Assembly (NCBI GenBank): GCA_025351345.1
Contig: JANXWB010000073.1
Coordinates: 1-64,000 of the forward strand
Source: Synechococcales cyanobacterium GL140_1_metabat_312
Lineage (GTDB): Bacteria > Cyanobacteriota > Cyanobacteriia > Leptolyngbyales > Leptolyngbyaceae
Reading direction: 5' to 3'
Length of the DNA: 64,000 bases
The position numbers and the translations under genes are program-made. The first letter of the stretch is position 1; each line of letters starts with the position of its first letter. This document shows, piece after piece, positions 17,845 to 34,015 of this stretch. The notes beneath the pieces are model-generated. The model was given only the letters and a program-made list of their open reading frames with translations, ran no database searches and was not told where the DNA came from.

Positions 17845-18330
17845 CTAAGTTAACGGCTGAGACGTCAAAACAAGTTGTAATTTGGCATGAATTAAATCGA
17901 TGTTGGCAAGACCAAGCTCGACTTCACCTTGAACAACGATTCCTGTGTTCAATAATCGATCTAACAATTCTAACAATGTAGGTTTTGCTGAAGGTTGGCC
18001 AGGGTAATAGCCGCCTTCCCTTGGCAGCAGGCTTCCAGCTTCACCTAAATCAAGATTCAAACTTGCGGGTTCAATATCAAAAATTTTACAAATTTCAACA
18101 ACTTGTTCCGCCAGCTTTTTCAGACTATCGGACGCATTGTCGAGTTGTTCATCACTCAAATCACCGCGCTCCATACTCCGAATCACCTGTGCTTCCATAA
18201 GTTGCCGAATTAATTCAGTCACGGTCAACAATAAGGGCGCTAATCCAGCATTTGGCTTTTCGGGTTTAATCTTAGACTTGATCGGAATTATAGGTTGCTG
18301 AGTGGGGGTGAAAACAGCGTCGATACTCAT
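17845..18330 (-). CDS. gvpK: Gas vesicle protein GvpK
   Basis: 161 residues. The GvpK core is present: GLAPLLLTVTELIRQLMEAQ, VIRSMERGDLSDEQLDNAS, then SLNLDLGEAGSLLP and the C-terminal LLELLDRLLNTGIVVQGEV, which echoes the GvpA/J fold. It has a short N-terminal extension with repeated Pro/Lys. It overlaps gvpJ by an ATGA junction, indicating translational coupling. Confidence 0.95.
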   Translation of the reverse strand: MSIDAVFTPTQQPIIPIKSKIKPEKPNAGLAPLLLTVTELIRQLMEAQVIRSMERGDLSDEQLDNASDSLKKLAEQVVEICKIFDIEPASLNLDLGEAGSLLPREGGYYPGQPSAKPTLLELLDRLLNTGIVVQGEVELGLANIDLIHAKLQLVLTSQPLT

Positions 18331-18755: not shown

Positions 18756-20228
18756 CTAACCGATTGCAAAGAAATGTCGATCGCGTTGAGCTAACCGATC
18801 GGATTTAGCAAGATTCCGAATGGACTCGACAACTTTGCTACGGGGTAAACTGAGATCGCTTTCGATTTGGGAAAGTCTTGCACCATTTTCACAACTTTTT
18901 AAGTATAGATGAAGCTGATCTTCAAGAGTAAATTCTAGAAGTTCATCAGATTCTTCAAGAGTGACGACTGTGGCGATCGTATCTTCAACTTCATCCAAAG
19001 ATACAAGAGGTGCAGCCTCAAAGAAATCGAATTCTAGACTCGATGCAAGCTCTGCAAAGTCTCCCGATTCTTGGGCTTCATCAAGAACAGCCTGCATAGT
19101 TTCATTATCTAGACGGGCGATTGTTTCTTCGATCGGTGGCTCAAAGGCTACATCAATAAAGCTTTCGAGTGTTTCAGCGATAGAAGCTTGAGCTAATCCT
19201 TCAAACGCTTCAGCGATCGGAGATTCAATATATTCTTCAATCCCATGAATGATCGGCTCTTCAATCCCATCAACAATAGACATCGAGACCACAGGAACCA
19301 ATTCACGCAGAACCGATGACTCATTAATAATGTTCGATTCAGGACGAAGAATATCCCAAAGTAATGTCGTAGATTCAGCCACCGTAAGAGGCGACCTGGA
19401 TCTCAAAATATCAATACATAAATCTCGAAATTCGGAATTATCTAACGAAACTTCGAGTTCGTGATCTTTACAAATTTTGGCAATCATCAAACAGGATCGT
19501 AATCCAGACGCTCCAATTCCAGATGTTGAACTAGATTGAGTTCCTTCGCGGAATGCCCGGACAATGTTGACAATCGTGATGGCTGTTGCCCGATCGAGTT
19601 CAGTTTTTTGAATAACGATTTCTTGTTGAGTCAGTTCGTCAGGTTCTGGCACATCTATTGTAATCAAACGATCCATTAAGGCATCTTGAGTCGAATGCAC
19701 GCCGCAATATTCTTCAGGATTAGAGGTGAAAATAGCTCGGAAGTTTGGACTGACTTTGACATACTCGACCCCATTGCTCTCGGGCGGCAAAATGAGAATC
19801 TTTTCTTCTAAAACCGACAGAAGAATGTTATTGACTTCGGGGCGCGATCGGTTGAATTCATCATAAATCAGCGTATATCCTTCACGGCAAGCCAACGTCA
19901 GACGAGAATCAACCCAGTTTTGACGAACGCTATCTTCGACTTTTAGAACGCTATGAATATAATTGTCAACCAGTTTTTTATGGGTATAACCAGATTGTTT
20001 ACCAATCATGTCCGATGACTTAGCTTCATCATCCCCAAACATCAGCATCATGGGCCGTTGAAGCAAATCAGCCAAATGTAATGACAGTGTAGTTTTCCCG
20101 GTTCCGGCAGGTCCACGCAGATGCACCGGGAAACCAGACTGAAGGTATCGCAATGCCCGCGCCGTCAAGCGTTCTATAGCGGGGGTACTGACAAATCGAC
20201 GGGGGCTAGTACGAAGAATGGTCGCCAC
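18756..20228 (-). CDS. gvpN: Gas vesicle ATPase GvpN with long C-terminal extension
   Basis: AAA+ MoxR-type ATPase required for vesicle enlargement. Residues 1-300 are typical: Walker [19 protein letters not shown] near 39-56, Walker [16 protein letters not shown], sensor 1 [14 protein letters not shown], and the Arg-finger region [15 protein letters not shown]. Known GvpN proteins are about 300-350 residues. This one has 490, with an acidic low-complexity linker (about 325-437) and a final winged-helix-like module (438-490, DNA 18756-18917). That module matches the end of GvpC in the same operon. The GTG start at 20228 gives the expected N-terminus. Confidence 0.95.
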
Positions 20229-20343: not shown

Positions 20344-21249
20344 TTAGGCCCGATAGTAAGCCCGATCGCGTTGAACAATGTCGCCCGATCGGATCAGATG
20401 CTGTAGGGTATGCACCAATTCACTACGACTTACTCCTAGAGTGGCCTCCAGATCAGATAAACGAACACCGGAGCGAGAATTTACGGTTGCCAATAGTTTT
20501 TCGGACAGTGTAACGCCAACGATCGGCTCGTCAATCGGCTCGTCAATCGGCTCAACCTTGGGTTCTATGGGCGTTTTGACGATCGGCGCTTTAAGGACAA
20601 CTGGAGAGTTAGTCGAAGCTGTAGTAACAGATTTTGCAACGGATTTCGCTGGTGAGGGCGGAGACTCTTGAATTACAAATTTAAGAAAGTCTTCAATAGC
20701 TTGGGAGCCGATCGCTTGAATTGGAGCCGTTTGGCTTCCGATCGTCATCGGCAATGATCCATCATTCCCCCAAACATAATCTCGAATCGATTGAACTGAA
20801 ACTTTACGAGCAACGGTGTCTAAGGCAAACTGTGCGAACAATGCTTCAACATCTGCCGATCGTTGACGACGCGTTTCTTGCAACATGGCGGAAATTTCGG
20901 CGGACTGAGCCTTACGATCGCAGCGGAATTCTTCTAGTAATAATCGTAAATCTGCGGCAGCAATCAATCGGCAATCGTGTAATTCATGGAGAAATTTTTG
21001 GACGTCCCGACGACGCGTACTGGCTTCGATTTCACGTCCCGCTTGATCACATTGGGCTTCGAGTTGACGATCGAGTTCATCGGCTCGGAGTTTTGGTAAG
21101 ACTTGGCTCAGTTCATCACGGAGTTGTGTCGCCATTTCTGCATGTTCGGCTTGATGCTGCGATCGGAGTTCTGCAACCGTTCGCGATCGTTCCACGACCT
21201 CCGCTTGACGAGTTTGTCTGTCCTGTTGCCAAATATCTTTAAGTGCCAT
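20344..21249 (-). CDS. gvpC: Gas vesicle shell-strengthening protein GvpC, extended
   Basis: 301 residues. It opens MALKDIWQQDRQTRQ, the signature GvpC start, and continues as a long amphipathic helix region to about residue 163, ending near IRDYVWGND. GvpC binds the outside of the GvpA ribs. The usual 33-residue repeats are only weakly visible (LRLLLEEFRCDRKAQ, VEALFAQFALD). From about 190 to 245 there is a Pro/Ser/Thr/Val linker with a tandem PIDEPIDEPI. The last 50 residues (DNA 20344-20502) form a winged-helix-like module homologous to the end of GvpN. Position after gvpA and before gvpN is standard. Confidence 0.9.
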   Translation of the reverse strand: MALKDIWQQDRQTRQAEVVERSRTVAELRSQHQAEHAEMATQLRDELSQVLPKLRADELDRQLEAQCDQAGREIEASTRRRDVQKFLHELHDCRLIAAADLRLLLEEFRCDRKAQSAEISAMLQETRRQRSADVEALFAQFALDTVARKVSVQSIRDYVWGNDGSLPMTIGSQTAPIQAIGSQAIEDFLKFVIQESPPSPAKSVAKSVTTASTNSPVVLKAPIVKTPIEPKVEPIDEPIDEPIVGVTLSEKLLATVNSRSGVRLSDLEATLGVSRSELVHTLQHLIRSGDIVQRDRAYYRA

Positions 21250-21411: not shown

Positions 21412-21630
21412 TTAAGCCGCAGGAATTGCTGCTTGGGAAGTAAGGCCCACTGCTTCTGCATACTTAAGATAGGTTTCAACCGACGCGATGACCACGCGGG
21501 CTTCAATGGTTAACAATTCGATTCCGACTAACGAAACCCGAACCCAAGCATCAATCACAATGCCTTTGTCCAAGATCCGATCGACCACTTCTGCCAAACT
21601 CGAAGAAGAGTTCACTTTTTCAACAGCCAT
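21412..21630 (-). CDS. gvpA: Gas vesicle structural protein GvpA
   Basis: 72 residues, the main rib-forming protein. It begins [20 protein letters not shown] and continues with [20 protein letters not shown] and [20 protein letters not shown], nearly invariant across cyanobacteria. A GAGGAA ribosome-binding site lies 7 bases before the ATG. First gene of the operon. Only one gvpA copy is in the window. Its own terminator follows. Confidence 0.98.
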
Positions 21631-21964
21631 GATGATTCCTCGTAGGTTTAATTAAATACAATTTGTAGCAAGACACAGCATGAAGCGCTTTCAATGATGC
21701 ACAAGGCACTGTTTAAGACGGCTATGACATCCTTATCCACAAGATGCACTTAGGTGAATGAAAATCTACTAAGTGATATTACTTAACTTTGATGTTGGGT
21801 CTTACTTTCTGGACAATTTTATTTTATTTCGGCTTTATTCTAGCATTGTGGCGATCGCCTATCAGATCACTATTCTGTCTAAAGCCTTTAAGAACGGTTG
21901 TATTTCAAGAACACCTGTATAATCAGTGCAATATTTTTATAAGTAGTTGGGTTTGAGATTCGGG
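21631..21964. promoter_or_regulatory. Divergent gvpA / DUF4912 promoter region with inverted repeat
   Basis: About 330 bp without a gene. It must contain the gvpA promoter (minus) and that of the 1,000-residue protein (plus). CACTTAG at 21747-21753 and CTAAGTG at 21769-21775 form a 7-bp inverted repeat with a 15-bp centre, 117 bp upstream of gvpA; a dimeric regulator could bind it. A GCGATCGC octamer lies near 21850. I could not fix -10/-35 boxes with confidence. Confidence 0.4.
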
Positions 21965-24961
21965 ATGGCACATAAAAAATCGTTCGGATTGGGTCAAAGC
22001 AAGAGAATACGTTCCTTACGTGCTTCACAAGCTCTCACTCAGAGGGTGTGGACGGTTTTATTAAGTTCGGTGACTTGTGCCACGGTTTTGGGTTTGCCTT
22101 CGATATTAAGTTCAGTGAATGTGCGTGATATTGCCATAGCCCAAACTGCAACACCGCCTGTTTTACCCTCAGCATTGCCCCAGAGATCAAGTCTAACGAT
22201 CGAAGGATCTGGAAGTTTGACAGCAGTCAATCAGGTATTAAAAGAGAAATTTGAAGGGAAGTATCAGAAAACGCCCGTCACCTTTGGCACGAATGGGACG
22301 GCGGCGGGCTTACAGGCATTGGCTAATGGGAAAGCTGACTTAGCCGCGATCGGACGATTGTTAACACCTGAGGAAAAAGCGCAGGGATTCATTGCAATTC
22401 CCATTAAGCGTGAAAAGATCACCCTATTGGTCAGCGAGGAGAATCCCTTTCGCGGCAGTTTGACCATTGAACAGTTTGCTAAGATTTTTCGAGGGGAAAT
22501 TACAAATTGGTCTGAAGTCGGCGGGCCAGATAAAACCATTCGAGTTGTAGACCAGCCGGAGGTTAGCGACACGCGCCAGGTGTTCCCGGATTACCCAATT
22601 TTTAAAACAGCGCCGTTTCAAGTTGCTGCGAGTGCCGTGCAAGTTGGGTCTGAAGCGCTCGATGCGATCGCGGCACAGCTTGGGGTTGACGGCTTGGGTT
22701 ATATCACCGCAGATGGGGTAAAAAATCTCAAGGGAGTCCGTTCATTAGATATGCACAAAACCCAACCAAGCGATCGTCTTTATCCGTTCTCCCAGCCGAT
22801 CGCCTATGTCTACAAAAAAGGCAGTTTGTCCACCGCCGCTCAAGCCTTTCTTAGATATGTCGGGACAGACGAGGGAAAACTTGCAATTAAGTCTGTTAGT
22901 TCCCCAGGTGCGGTGATTGGAAATTCAGCGGCTTCGATTGCAATGGCGATCGCGACAACAGCCTCTGCCGCCGTTCCAACAGCAACTTCTACGGTAACTC
23001 TCGCCGCCACCGTTCCAACTAATGTTAGTCCAGCTCCAGCGTTATCTAGTCCAGCTCTAGCCATGGCTAATAACGCTCCAGATAAAAGCCTAGCTTGGTT
23101 GCCGTGGATTCTGGGATTAGGGCTAATAGGTTTAGCGTGGTGGTTATTGAAAAACAAGGGAGACAATGGGGCTGATTCGCCAGTGGAACCAACGATCGAC
23201 TCTACCGCATCTGTGCCTGAAACTTTAGACCCAATTGTGCCCGTTACAGATTCAACAACAGTCACACCACCGATCGCCTCTGTTAATCCAGTTGATGCAA
23301 ATGGTGCGATCGCCGTGGGTGCAGCAACCGGAACATTCCTATTGGATAAAGATTCCCGTTCATGCGAGTCGTCTGAAAATCCGGTGAATGATGACTCAGT
23401 GAATGATGACTCAATTGTTGCCGTTGACCACGATGTTGATACCTATGGCGCGGGAACAGTGCAGATCAACCCTCGCGATAGTGGCGGTAATTCGGGTGGA
23501 TTGAAATTCCCACCGATCGATTCCGCTATCCCTCCACAAGCTGTGGCGATCGCAGGTGTCGCAGGGCTGGTCGGTGTTGCAGTCGCAGGACTGGCGGATG
23601 AAGCAAACGCCTCTGACAAATCTGCGGCCAATGTGACCGTAACACCTTCCTTAGTTCCGGCGCTCATACTTCCCCATGAACCAATTACTCAATTACCCCC
23701 AGACATTCATGCGCCTCTAAATTCTGCGTCCCCCACAACGAACCCGAGCATACCCGATCCAACGATCGCCGAATCTAAAACGCTCCCACTAGAGCAATCG
23801 GATCCTGGTGAATTACCCAACTCTGCCGGAATCGCCGCTAGAGTTGCAGCCGGAATTATTGTCGGAGCGAGCGCGGTTGTACTCGGTAATACGGGACCTA
23901 GGAATAATAGGGATAGTTTGACGTCCGACCAGTTGGCTACTGTGGATCACGACCTTCCTGATTTGGTTAGCGGATACGGCGAAAGTCGTATTGTCCTGAT
24001 GCCTCGCGATCCTCAATGGGCTTATACCTACTGGGATATTCCCGAAGAACATCGGCAATCGGTGCGTTATCTCGGTGGCGAGCAGCTTGCCCTTCGGCTC
24101 TATGACGCAACAGACCTAGACCTGAATAATAGCAAGCCCCACAGCGTTCAACAGTATGCTTGCGATGAATTAGCAAGAGATTGGTACCTGCCAATTCCAG
24201 TCAGCGATCGGGACTACATCACAGAAATTGGGTATTTAACGGGTTCAGGAGAATGGCTACTCTTAGCCCGATCGAACCGAATCGGCATTCCCCCGGTCTA
24301 CCCGACCGATTGGATGGACGATCAATCTATCACCGTGGACTGGGAAGAACCGTTACAAGGCAAGACCTTCCTCCAAATTGTCCCTCCCGGAAGAGCTAAA
24401 CCTCAGACGGATGAGGCATTTCATGACCAAATCTTTCACCTCGCCTACGGAATGCACCAAGAATCGAGCCTCGTGGGATCGTTCTTTGGATCCATGCACC
24501 AAGTTCCGTCAGAGTCGTTAAGTTCCTTTGTTTTCCCAGCAGGCGCTGGCCTTTGGGCTAATGAATTCCCCGTTAGATTAGCCGCATCCAGGATTGGCAT
24601 GTCGGACATGAGAATGTCAGGAATTGGAATGTCAGGAATTGGAATGTCGGGCATTGGACTTGGCGCGTCAATACCGACCGATCGGTCTCGCAAATTCTGG
24701 CTAGTAGCGGATGCTGAACTCATCGTCTATGGCGCAACTGAACCCGACGCCCAACTAACGATAGGCGGAGTTCCGGTACAACTCACACCAGAAGGAACCT
24801 TTAGAATCCAACTCTCGTTCCAGGATGGCAATCTAGATTTTCCCATTATGGCGATCGCAAAAGATGGTGAACAAATGCGACAAGTTCGGATGACCTTCGA
24901 TCGCAATACACCATTACGTAAAACAAATAGCAAAGAGGACGCTACGGACGAACGATATTAA
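21965..24961 (+). CDS. Phosphate-binding-like domain / DUF4912 fusion protein
   Basis: 998 residues from the ATG at 21965; an in-frame TTG at 21947 adds six. A signal-anchor near residues 33-55 precedes a PBP-like domain of the PstS family (LTIEGSGSLTAVNQVL, FGTNGTAAGLQALANGKADL, FRGEITNWSEVGGPD), about residues 80-320. A Ser/Thr/Ala-rich linker and one transmembrane helix (LAWLPWILGLGLIGLAWWLL, near 380) follow. After an acidic region with two more hydrophobic patches comes a DUF4912 domain (VLMPRDPQWAYTYWDIPEEH, about 675-815), a Met-Ser-Gly-Ile repeat, and a beta-rich C-terminus (YGATEPDAQLTIGGVPVQL). Function unknown. Divergent from gvpA. Confidence 0.85.
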   Translation: MAHKKSFGLGQSKRIRSLRASQALTQRVWTVLLSSVTCATVLGLPSILSSVNVRDIAIAQTATPPVLPSALPQRSSLTIEGSGSLTAVNQVLKEKFEGKYQKTPVTFGTNGTAAGLQALANGKADLAAIGRLLTPEEKAQGFIAIPIKREKITLLVSEENPFRGSLTIEQFAKIFRGEITNWSEVGGPDKTIRVVDQPEVSDTRQVFPDYPIFKTAPFQVAASAVQVGSEALDAIAAQLGVDGLGYITADGVKNLKGVRSLDMHKTQPSDRLYPFSQPIAYVYKKGSLSTAAQAFLRYVGTDEGKLAIKSVSSPGAVIGNSAASIAMAIATTASAAVPTATSTVTLAATVPTNVSPAPALSSPALAMANNAPDKSLAWLPWILGLGLIGLAWWLLKNKGDNGADSPVEPTIDSTASVPETLDPIVPVTDSTTVTPPIASVNPVDANGAIAVGAATGTFLLDKDSRSCESSENPVNDDSVNDDSIVAVDHDVDTYGAGTVQINPRDSGGNSGGLKFPPIDSAIPPQAVAIAGVAGLVGVAVAGLADEANASDKSAANVTVTPSLVPALILPHEPITQLPPDIHAPLNSASPTTNPSIPDPTIAESKTLPLEQSDPGELPNSAGIAARVAAGIIVGASAVVLGNTGPRNNRDSLTSDQLATVDHDLPDLVSGYGESRIVLMPRDPQWAYTYWDIPEEHRQSVRYLGGEQLALRLYDATDLDLNNSKPHSVQQYACDELARDWYLPIPVSDRDYITEIGYLTGSGEWLLLARSNRIGIPPVYPTDWMDDQSITVDWEEPLQGKTFLQIVPPGRAKPQTDEAFHDQIFHLAYGMHQESSLVGSFFGSMHQVPSESLSSFVFPAGAGLWANEFPVRLAASRIGMSDMRMSGIGMSGIGMSGIGLGASIPTDRSRKFWLVADAELIVYGATEPDAQLTIGGVPVQLTPEGTFRIQLSFQDGNLDFPIMAIAKDGEQMRQVRMTFDRNTPLRKTNSKEDATDERY
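24595..24665 (+). repeat. In-gene tandem repeat coding MSGIG units
   Basis: Tandem 15-bp units (about ATGTCAGGAATTGGA) encode MSGIG three times, preceded by diverged MSDM and RMSGIG copies. Located between the DUF4912 domain and the C-terminal beta domain of the large fusion protein. Likely a slippage-prone linker. Confidence 0.8.
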
Positions 24962-25127: not shown

Positions 25128-25478
25128 ATGAGTCTTCCTCCCACCAATGATGTATTTTCCAAGGGGTTTAGCGCTGGAATTCAAGTTTGGCTAGTTTTTC
25201 TAATCGCGTTTTATGTGTTGAGGTATCCTGCACCCTTGAGCATTATGTTGGGAGCTATAGCTGGGGTTTCGGCTGGGTTTATTGTGGGTTGGTGGGGAGC
25301 TAAACCCTATGCTGAACCTGAAGAAATCGTTGAAGAAGATAGCCTACAGGAAGTGGCCCAAATCCGATTTCGTAAACGGCGGACCTATGCGCGGATGCGT
25401 AATTCTCGTAACAAGCCTGAGGTTAAATGGGATTGGAATATGGTGAAAGATAATCTGAGTTTTTGGAGACGATCGTAG
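25128..25478 (+). CDS. Small two-helix membrane protein, unknown
   Basis: 116 residues. Two hydrophobic segments (GIQVWLVFLIAFYVL and LSIMLGAIAGVSAGFIVGWW) are followed by an acidic stretch and a strongly basic cytoplasmic tail (IRFRKRRTYARMRNSRNK). I recognise no named domain; similar small proteins are common in cyanobacteria. It ends in a strong bidirectional terminator shared with convergent recA. Confidence 0.7.
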   Translation: MSLPPTNDVFSKGFSAGIQVWLVFLIAFYVLRYPAPLSIMLGAIAGVSAGFIVGWWGAKPYAEPEEIVEEDSLQEVAQIRFRKRRTYARMRNSRNKPEVKWDWNMVKDNLSFWRRS

Positions 25479-33795: not shown

Positions 33796-33889
33796 TCCAC
33801 CGTTGAGTCTAGATGTGAGAAAATCTCGTTTTGTCCGGATGGAGCCTGTCCCTTGGGGTATAGAGGAATGGTAGATGCACCCTGATGAT

Positions 33890-33916
33890 AACCTCGACTT
33901 CGGTTGAGGTTTTTTA
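33890..33916 (+). terminator. Intrinsic terminator downstream of cry
   Basis: AACCTC (33890-33895), a loop GACTTCGGTT, and GAGGTT (33906-33911) are followed by TTTT. Classic rho-independent layout with a CTTCGG-containing loop. Confidence 0.8.
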
Positions 33917-34015
33917 TTGAGTGGGTTTGATGCATAGACGATCTGAGGGTCCTGAGTGACAAATTATTGTTGTTATTTCGCAAGTGTTGGTTAGTATTCA
34001 GTTGAGTGTCGATCG

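Follow-up and report, generated by a model that had tools for sequence, protein, structure and literature searches.

A cyanobacterial protein joining a PstS-fold domain to DUF4912: a candidate membrane tether with a modular outer domain

We analyzed a 64,000-nucleotide stretch of DNA from a cyanobacterium of the Leptolyngbyaceae (GenBank assembly GCA_025351345.1, contig JANXWB010000073.1, positions 1 to 64,000), hereafter called the window, and focused on a plus-strand gene whose product joins a periplasmic-binding-protein (PBP) domain of the PstS fold via a tryptophan-rich hydrophobic helix and a long linker to DUF4912 and a C-terminal domain modeled as immunoglobulin (Ig)-like (Table 1). With slightly less than even confidence, we propose that this protein tethers a cytoplasmic docking module to the membrane and carries a modular outer accessory domain whose ligand is probably not phosphate bound in the way of PstS. 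The architecture is widespread in cyanobacteria and little studied: A literature search on the name DUF4912 returned a single paper, a cotton gene table, and the titles and abstract openings of the search results contained no study of a PstS-like/DUF4912 fusion.

Domain order, spread and selection

Judged by its full-length homologues in many genomes, the frame of 998 residues is a real gene and not a chance frame; a TTG at 21947 is a possible alternative start. Pfam assigns residues 72–302 to PBP_like_2 (PF12849; E 7.6e-32, 111.6 bits vs a cut-off of 27), which places the domain in the PBP fold by sequence, and residues 671–786 to DUF4912 (PF16258; E 1.4e-40, 138.7 bits vs a gathering cut-off of 29.4). 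Behind the helix DUF4912 is the only Pfam match, and neither a kinase nor a cyclase nor any other known output domain was detected there. The Pfam matches, the frame and a structure model confirm what an earlier note on this DNA, made from the letters alone, had described: a binding-like domain, DUF4912 and a beta-rich C-terminus on a single polypeptide. The signal peptide is presumably cleaved between AIA and Q. Kyte–Doolittle means of 19-mers amount to 1.78 for the signal peptide (residues 30–48) and 1.73 for the W-rich helix (376–394), and the two Ala/Gly-rich stretches of the linker reach 2.04 (527–545), which is above the W-rich helix, and 1.51 (627–645). The transmembrane helix named in the earlier note is indeed predicted, and the stretch 527–545 leaves a second one possible. 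Similarly, the tandem MSGIG repeat mentioned there exists but had been misplaced, since its place is behind DUF4912, ahead of the C-terminal domain, and not between the binding domain and DUF4912; Tandem Repeats Finder reports a 15-bp period over 24589–24658 that covers the repeats, and in some relatives the array at the same place is very long, with far more copies.

An AlphaFold2 model of residues 651–998 is confident for both inner domains and not for the region between them, with a predicted local distance difference test (pLDDT) value of at least 90 for 103 of 348 residues. DUF4912 is modeled as a beta sandwich whose Foldseek and VIA matches are dominated by fibronectin type III (FnIII) domains: All four Foldseek matches with E ≤ 0.001 are of this type, and the best VIA row shows a Z of 9.3 and a root-mean-square deviation (rmsd) of 3.1 over 88 aligned residues, a middling Z for a predicted model. 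The C-terminal domain, modeled alone with a mean pLDDT of 87.1, is nearly all beta, as the earlier note had expected. Its top VIA row is the glucodextranase 1ug9 (Z 7.2, rmsd 2.1, 63 aligned residues), with which we regard the sulfite oxidase rows at 6.8 as tied; absence of a family from the VIA lists does not exclude that family. For this domain, Foldseek returned nothing at E ≤ 0.001, and Glucodextran_B (PF09136) matches weakly in 26 of 29 aligned C-terminal domains, the window's own being without a match. A profile search of the PDB with an alignment of DUF4912 and the C-terminus yielded nothing significant (best E 0.21); it touched the same part of glucodextranase with a non-significant E of 0.75. 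These middling similarities suggest an FnIII-like DUF4912 and an Ig-like C-terminus, folds that would support a role in docking or binding but do not by themselves establish a function.

Of 244 genomes sampled from the whole phylum, 129 contain DUF4912 matches; within the window's family, 41 of 42 genomes do. The window's own genome holds three copies: the window gene, a 429-residue protein with a Rho_N domain (L070) and a second fusion of 736 residues (C60). The Rho_N protein shares DUF4912, the linker and the C-terminal domain with the window protein (56% identity to window residues 656–996), whereas it carries Rho_N where the latter has signal peptide, binding domain and helix. The second fusion, which occurs in many other cyanobacteria as well, resembles the window protein in its PBP domain, hydrophobic helix, Ala/Gly-rich linker and DUF4912 but differs in that no C-terminal Ig-like domain was detected. 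We refer to the window-like combination of DUF4912 and C-terminus as type-1 and to the fusion in which no Ig-like domain was detected as type-2. The 40 compared regions with long DUF4912 frames comprise 37 type-1 frames from 37 family genomes, one Rho_N-type protein (L120) and two frames from other families. Additionally, the binding-domain alignment was used to scan public genomes, which yielded 454 relatives, and our counts rest on the best 80, among which some genomes occur more than once and whose sources include Phormidesmis, Leptolyngbyaceae, Nostoc, Fischerella and Pleurocapsa: DUF4912 lies in the same frame as the binding domain in 71 of these 80 (37 type-1, 34 type-2) and was not detected in the other nine. 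In L152 (9860–12193, plus strand), as well as in L138, L141 and L196, the same binding domain and W-rich helix are followed by repeated Ala/Gly-rich hydrophobic stretches in place of DUF4912, which was not detected. L087 (9111–12296, minus strand) has WD40-like blades between binding domain and helix, and L175 looks like the same contig.

Within the 37 type-1 family genomes the binding domain is present in 31 (in one case cut by the contig end) and was not found in four, while two frames reach the contig end where it would be expected, that of L106 being also broken there. The four genomes (G249, G250, G256 and G270) keep the signal peptide, a helix, DUF4912 and the C-terminus; G249 and G250 belong to the genus of the window and have similar break points, G256 and G270 represent two other genera. 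Because G248, a further member of the window's genus, and most of the family have the binding domain, its absence is most simply explained by loss. A comparison of the window with G249 gives nonsynonymous (dN) and synonymous (dS) rates of 0.040 and 0.797 for DUF4912, 0.052 and 0.671 for the C-terminal domain, and 0.237 and 0.501 for the linker (residues 401–655, 188 codons compared). The low dN relative to dS of the two inner domains argues that this pair is under strong purifying selection in the genus, even though G249 lacks the outer domain. Moreover, the genomes in which the binding domain was not found are an argument that the inner half can function independently, and they make the role of the outer part directly testable. 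The DUF4912 module occurs free, membrane-anchored with the binding domain, or anchored without it, which provides a natural series in which to look for its partner.

The binding domain probably resides outside and the DUF4912 tail in the cytoplasm, as the earlier note had surmised from the sequence. Two observations support this topology. The net charge is higher after the W-rich helix than before it in 87 relatives out of 102, equal in 7 and lower in 8, the window belonging to the last group. The standalone copy of the inner module in the own genome has Rho_N at its N-terminus and, by eye, no evident signal peptide. For the charge count, rows containing X and duplicate C-termini were dropped, which left 108 rows. 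A W-containing helix was assigned in 102 of these, by a crude choice that is wrong for at least L086. A similarly crude count of extra hydrophobic stretches (mean at least 1.6) finds none in 60, one in 19, two in 14, three in 8 and four in 1 of these 102 proteins. As both odd and even numbers occur, the extra stretches are probably not all membrane-spanning.

Table 1. Positions of the fusion gene, its parts and adjoining features in the window.
Feature	Position	Strand	Basis or remark
Whole gene	21965..24961	+	998 aa; ATG 21965, stop 24959-24961
Signal peptide, residues 1-59	21965..22141	+	Hydrophobic stretch; Q60 invariant in alignment of relatives
Periplasmic-binding-protein (PstS-fold) domain, residues 72-309	22178..22891	+	PF12849; TIGR02136 below cut-off; PDB 9l8j
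Altered anion loop D-Q-P-E-V-S-D-T-R, residues 196-204	22550..22576	+	Alignment
Predicted W-rich transmembrane helix, residues 376-394	23090..23146	+	Hydropathy and conservation
Low-complexity linker, residues 395-655 (~260 aa), fast-evolving	23147..23929	+	Ala/Gly-rich hydrophobic stretches 527-545 and 627-645
DUF4912, residues 671-786	23975..24322	+	PF16258; FnIII-like beta sandwich in AlphaFold2 model; Foldseek, VIA
Three MSGIG repeats in tandem, residues 884-898	24614..24658	+	Sequence; Tandem Repeats Finder
C-terminal Ig-like domain, residues ~908-980	24686..24904	+	AlphaFold2 model, VIA rows, weak Glucodextran_B matches in relatives
gvpA, divergent neighbor, not judged part of the system	21412..21630	-
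TATAAT, probable -10 box	21918..21923	+	Alignment of four congeners

The outer domain and phosphate

The best solved relative of the outer domain is the Sll0540-type binding protein of Synechocystis (PDB 9l8j), with an E of 6.4e-40 for the window and 5.6e-72 for the family profile. Its solved chain of 242 residues is a binding domain alone, whereas the window protein is a fusion, and at the positions that S-D-T and G-R occupy in the fused family the solved protein retains S-G-T and S-R. A Nodularia homologue appears in a published list as a potential binder of phosphate (PMC3610870). With PstS proteins (TIGR02136, 4gd5, 4q8r and L203, the PstS of the own genome) the window domain shares the common fold and overall sequence; unlike these, it is anchored and fused, has altered pocket positions and scores below the PstS family cut-offs (TIGR02136: 105.4 bits vs 206.6; TIGR00975: 20.4 bits vs 205).

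For a comparison of the pocket we took the phosphate-binding positions to be T10, S38, D56, R135, D137, S139, G140 and T141 in E. coli PstS numbering, with D137 as the assumed partner of R135; F11 was left out because the own PstS has an alanine there. The comparison comprises 105 rows including the reference and thus 104 fused-type domains. Removed beforehand were eight loci that lack a complete binding domain, L206 (LysR-like), repeated identical rows and any row in which X residues occur close to the start. While the PstS of the own genome keeps all eight positions, the window domain has L, T, G, Q, E, S, D and T: In its anion loop, the canonical arginine has become Q197 and the canonical glycine of S-G-T has become D202. 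Among the fused-type domains, Gly140 is replaced by Asp or Glu in all 104 (Gly kept in 0), Asp56 is kept in 0 with Gly in 101, and Thr10 is kept in 1 with a hydrophobic residue in 103; R135 is kept in 94, S139 in 98 and T141 in 92. Since Thr10 and Asp56 are not conserved in the PstS of 4gd5 either, according to the printed alignment, the change from S-G-T to S-D-T and the window's loss of the arginine weigh most. No Pst component was found among the six neighboring proteins scanned (products of gvp genes, a 301-residue protein and a 116-residue protein). Because the pocket is altered across the family and further in the window, the phosphate sensing suggested by the earlier note is not supported, and the residue comparison it had proposed came out against it. 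Phosphate binding is not disproved by these substitutions; they indicate that the ligand is probably not phosphate held in the manner of PstS. We rejected a phosphate sensor on the pocket residues and on the score below the PstS family cut-off.

Tether, receptor and other readings

From the domain order, the family spread, the pocket changes, the missing domains and the selection on the inner domains, all of which are read from the sequences, we infer topology, docking, tethering and a direction of change as follows: The signal peptide would send the PstS-fold domain to the periplasm, the single W-rich helix would hold the chain in the membrane, and a long flexible linker in the cytoplasm would bear the FnIII-like DUF4912 and the Ig-like domain. 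This inner module closely matches the C-terminal part of the Rho_N-DUF4912 protein, which the same genome makes separately, and most likely binds a partner, which would thereby be kept at the membrane, and the outer domain would be an optional modular accessory that is missing in several lineages. A tether fits better than a rigid relay because the linker is long and loosely conserved. Several points weigh against this proposal: No docking partner was identified, FnIII-like and Ig-like folds with middling Z values are no proof of docking, and selection was measured within one genus. The window itself is among the eight proteins with a lower charge behind the helix (0 before, −1 after), and its stretch 527–545 beats the W-rich helix in hydrophobicity, so that one or two extra helices are possible. 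Furthermore, the binding domain has 34 invariant columns over 20 rows and is 75% identical between the window and G248 (pN 0.159, synonymous change saturated); conserved in this way where it is present, it is, as far as sequence tells, not decaying in the window and does something in most species. This conservation agrees with the main rival, which we consider possible but on balance doubtful: a true ligand receptor, in which a small non-phosphate solute bound by the outer domain would alter how DUF4912 and the Ig-like domain cluster or are exposed on the inside. Receptors with a binding-protein ectodomain exist, for instance histidine kinases with such sensors, and the window protein would resemble them in its predicted succession of outer PBP-fold domain, helix and inner module; unlike them, it has no known signaling output domain inside according to Pfam. 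The family's own motif R-P-x-x-S-D-T-R suggests a shared but different ligand, and the own genome carries the fusion in two versions. A receptor is harder to reconcile with roughly 260 loosely conserved residues between helix and DUF4912, and with the lack of the domain in 4 of 37 family genomes while the inner half is still constrained in G249. Quite unlikely in our view is that the tail lies outside too, with the extra hydrophobic stretch as a second helix and DUF4912 and the Ig-like domain as surface modules. Surface proteins often contain FnIII-like and Ig-like folds, and the window's stretch 527–545 (2.04 vs 1.73 for the W-rich helix) would be a candidate for this second helix; a fixed outside tail is made improbable by the crude count of extra stretches, which are odd in number in 27 and even in 75 of 102 proteins, and by the standalone Rho_N copy with no evident signal peptide.

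Delivery of a substrate to an ATP-binding cassette (ABC) importer by a tethered solute-binding protein, with the tail serving for anchoring or positioning, also appears unlikely. Although the domain stems from a family of transporter-linked binding proteins, no transporter domain was found in the six neighboring proteins scanned, and the neighbor clusters listed contain no recurrent transporter that we noticed, except for a Kdp-type potassium ATPase subunit that by eye lies upstream on the opposite strand in 11 loci; moreover, the conserved inner half would be left unexplained. Highly improbable, finally, is a phosphate sensor controlling gas-vesicle genes, a link that the earlier note had raised as worth testing. 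The note correctly described the fusion gene as diverging from the gas-vesicle operon, an arrangement that is also found in G248 and G249, and the PstS-like fold would suit such a sensor. Phosphate limitation lasting 14 days is followed by a rise of gvp genes in Nodularia spumigena, which provides a physiological link in a cyanobacterium (PMC9846622). Additionally, a gvpF/L homologue (56% identity, E 2e-89) is encoded about 2.8 kb upstream of the type-2 gene in L125, the one clear exception outside the genus. Set against this are the altered pocket next to an own PstS that is intact at the compared positions, and the neighborhoods: Among the 37 other family genomes, gvp genes stand beside the type-1 gene only in G248 and G249, both from the window's genus, and in the compared flanks of the 34 family genomes outside the genus there are none, although 27 of these have gvpN (over the cut-off in 33 of 42 family genomes). 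These flanks measure mostly 7–9 kb, with less than 3 kb upstream in five of 37 loci (L105, L106, L111, L114 and L119). In the best 80 of the 454 relatives, gvpA is nearby only in L123, which we take to be the G248 contig; weak gvpN-like matches in L143, L165 and L167 (E 1e-5 to 3e-5) were taken as general AAA ATPases. G250 (69% complete) keeps the gene and its promoter-proximal sequence, and 1.15 kb of its upstream sequence contain no gvp gene. Directly upstream of the ATG, about 95 bp show good conservation among the window, G249 and G250 and weaker conservation in G248, and as the probable −10 box is conserved in all four congeners, the fusion gene seems to have its own core promoter. The gvp adjacency is best read as local synteny at the genus level, which also covers the downstream gene for the 116-residue protein (in four congeners) and a recA-like gene (in three, the contig ending in G249). 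Because adjacency to gvpA was seen in one genus only, the proposed link between phosphate state and buoyancy is not supported, and the neighborhood check likewise came out against it. We rejected the gas-vesicle link on the 40 compared regions and the best 80 loci.

Neighboring genes

A conserved partner across the type-1 loci was not found in the neighbor clusters listed, the largest of which (47 loci) by eye looks like mixed signaling proteins. Directly 3′ of the type-1 gene and on the same strand, a beta-carbonic anhydrase (Pro_CA) is encoded in eight of the 37 family genomes, seven from one genus and one from another (L088, L089, L093, L103, L107, L111, L116 and L117); its start lies within about 40 bp of the end of the type-1 gene or overlaps it, and we take its C-terminal end to resemble that of carboxysomal CcaA. 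In seven further family genomes of the 37, which are all the genomes compared of one genus (L096, L097, L098, L101, L102, L105 and L108), a shell-type protein with a bacterial microcompartment (BMC) domain follows on the same strand 58–244 bp 3′ of the type-1 gene. One or the other gene thus follows the type-1 gene in 15 of 37 family genomes from three genera. Counted by loci with duplicates included, these are 10 (carbonic anhydrase) and 8 (BMC) of 76 type-1 loci, a set in which some genomes occur twice and two do not belong to the family. Neither neighbor occurs in any of 34 type-2 loci, beside the window gene, in its congeners or in the remaining type-1 loci. Type-1 proteins might accordingly be pictured as membrane tethers of the carbon-concentrating machinery, in which the outer domain would read an anion related to inorganic carbon and the inner pair would dock carboxysome or carbonic-anhydrase components, a picture to which we assign a low probability. 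The association is a lead and not a result: It was noticed post hoc and comes from only three genera. In G008, G011, G024 and G036, carbonic-anhydrase and DUF4912 genes by eye lie about 1–12 kb apart; this wider proximity was given no weight, and the intervening genes form no common operon.

The loci of the two fusion types also differ in a DUF937-like gene, which is present in 20 of 34 type-2 loci vs 0 of 76 type-1 loci and whose Pfam match lies below the cut-off in the one member tested. In 13 loci of the fusion gene, by their names from heterocyst-forming genera, a MerR-type regulator is located upstream on the same strand, and in the member tested (L146, 8295–9434, plus strand) it is fused to a CbiC domain.

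Behind gvpA, the window contains gvpN, gvpK/gvpA-like and gvpF/L genes, and the 301-residue protein is encoded between gvpA and gvpN. GvpN and this protein share related C-terminal tails of about 40 residues (18759–18908 and 20347–20496, both minus strand; 15 of 40 residues identical, E 6e-11), one of which gives weak matches of the helix-turn-helix type; to our knowledge, such related tails are unusual for gas-vesicle proteins. A single frame at 17845–18330 (minus strand) encodes a GvpK domain followed by a Gas_vesicle (GvpA/J-like) domain (PF05121, PF00741). On the other side, the 116-residue protein (25128–25478, plus strand) is small and membrane-like, has no Pfam match and adjoins the fusion gene in all four congeners; by eye, the recA-like gene lies beyond it. 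The only Rfam match in the window at the gathering threshold is the nitrogen-stress small RNA NsiR1 (RF02399) at 33869–33917 on the plus strand, with 46.3 bits vs a gathering score of 39.

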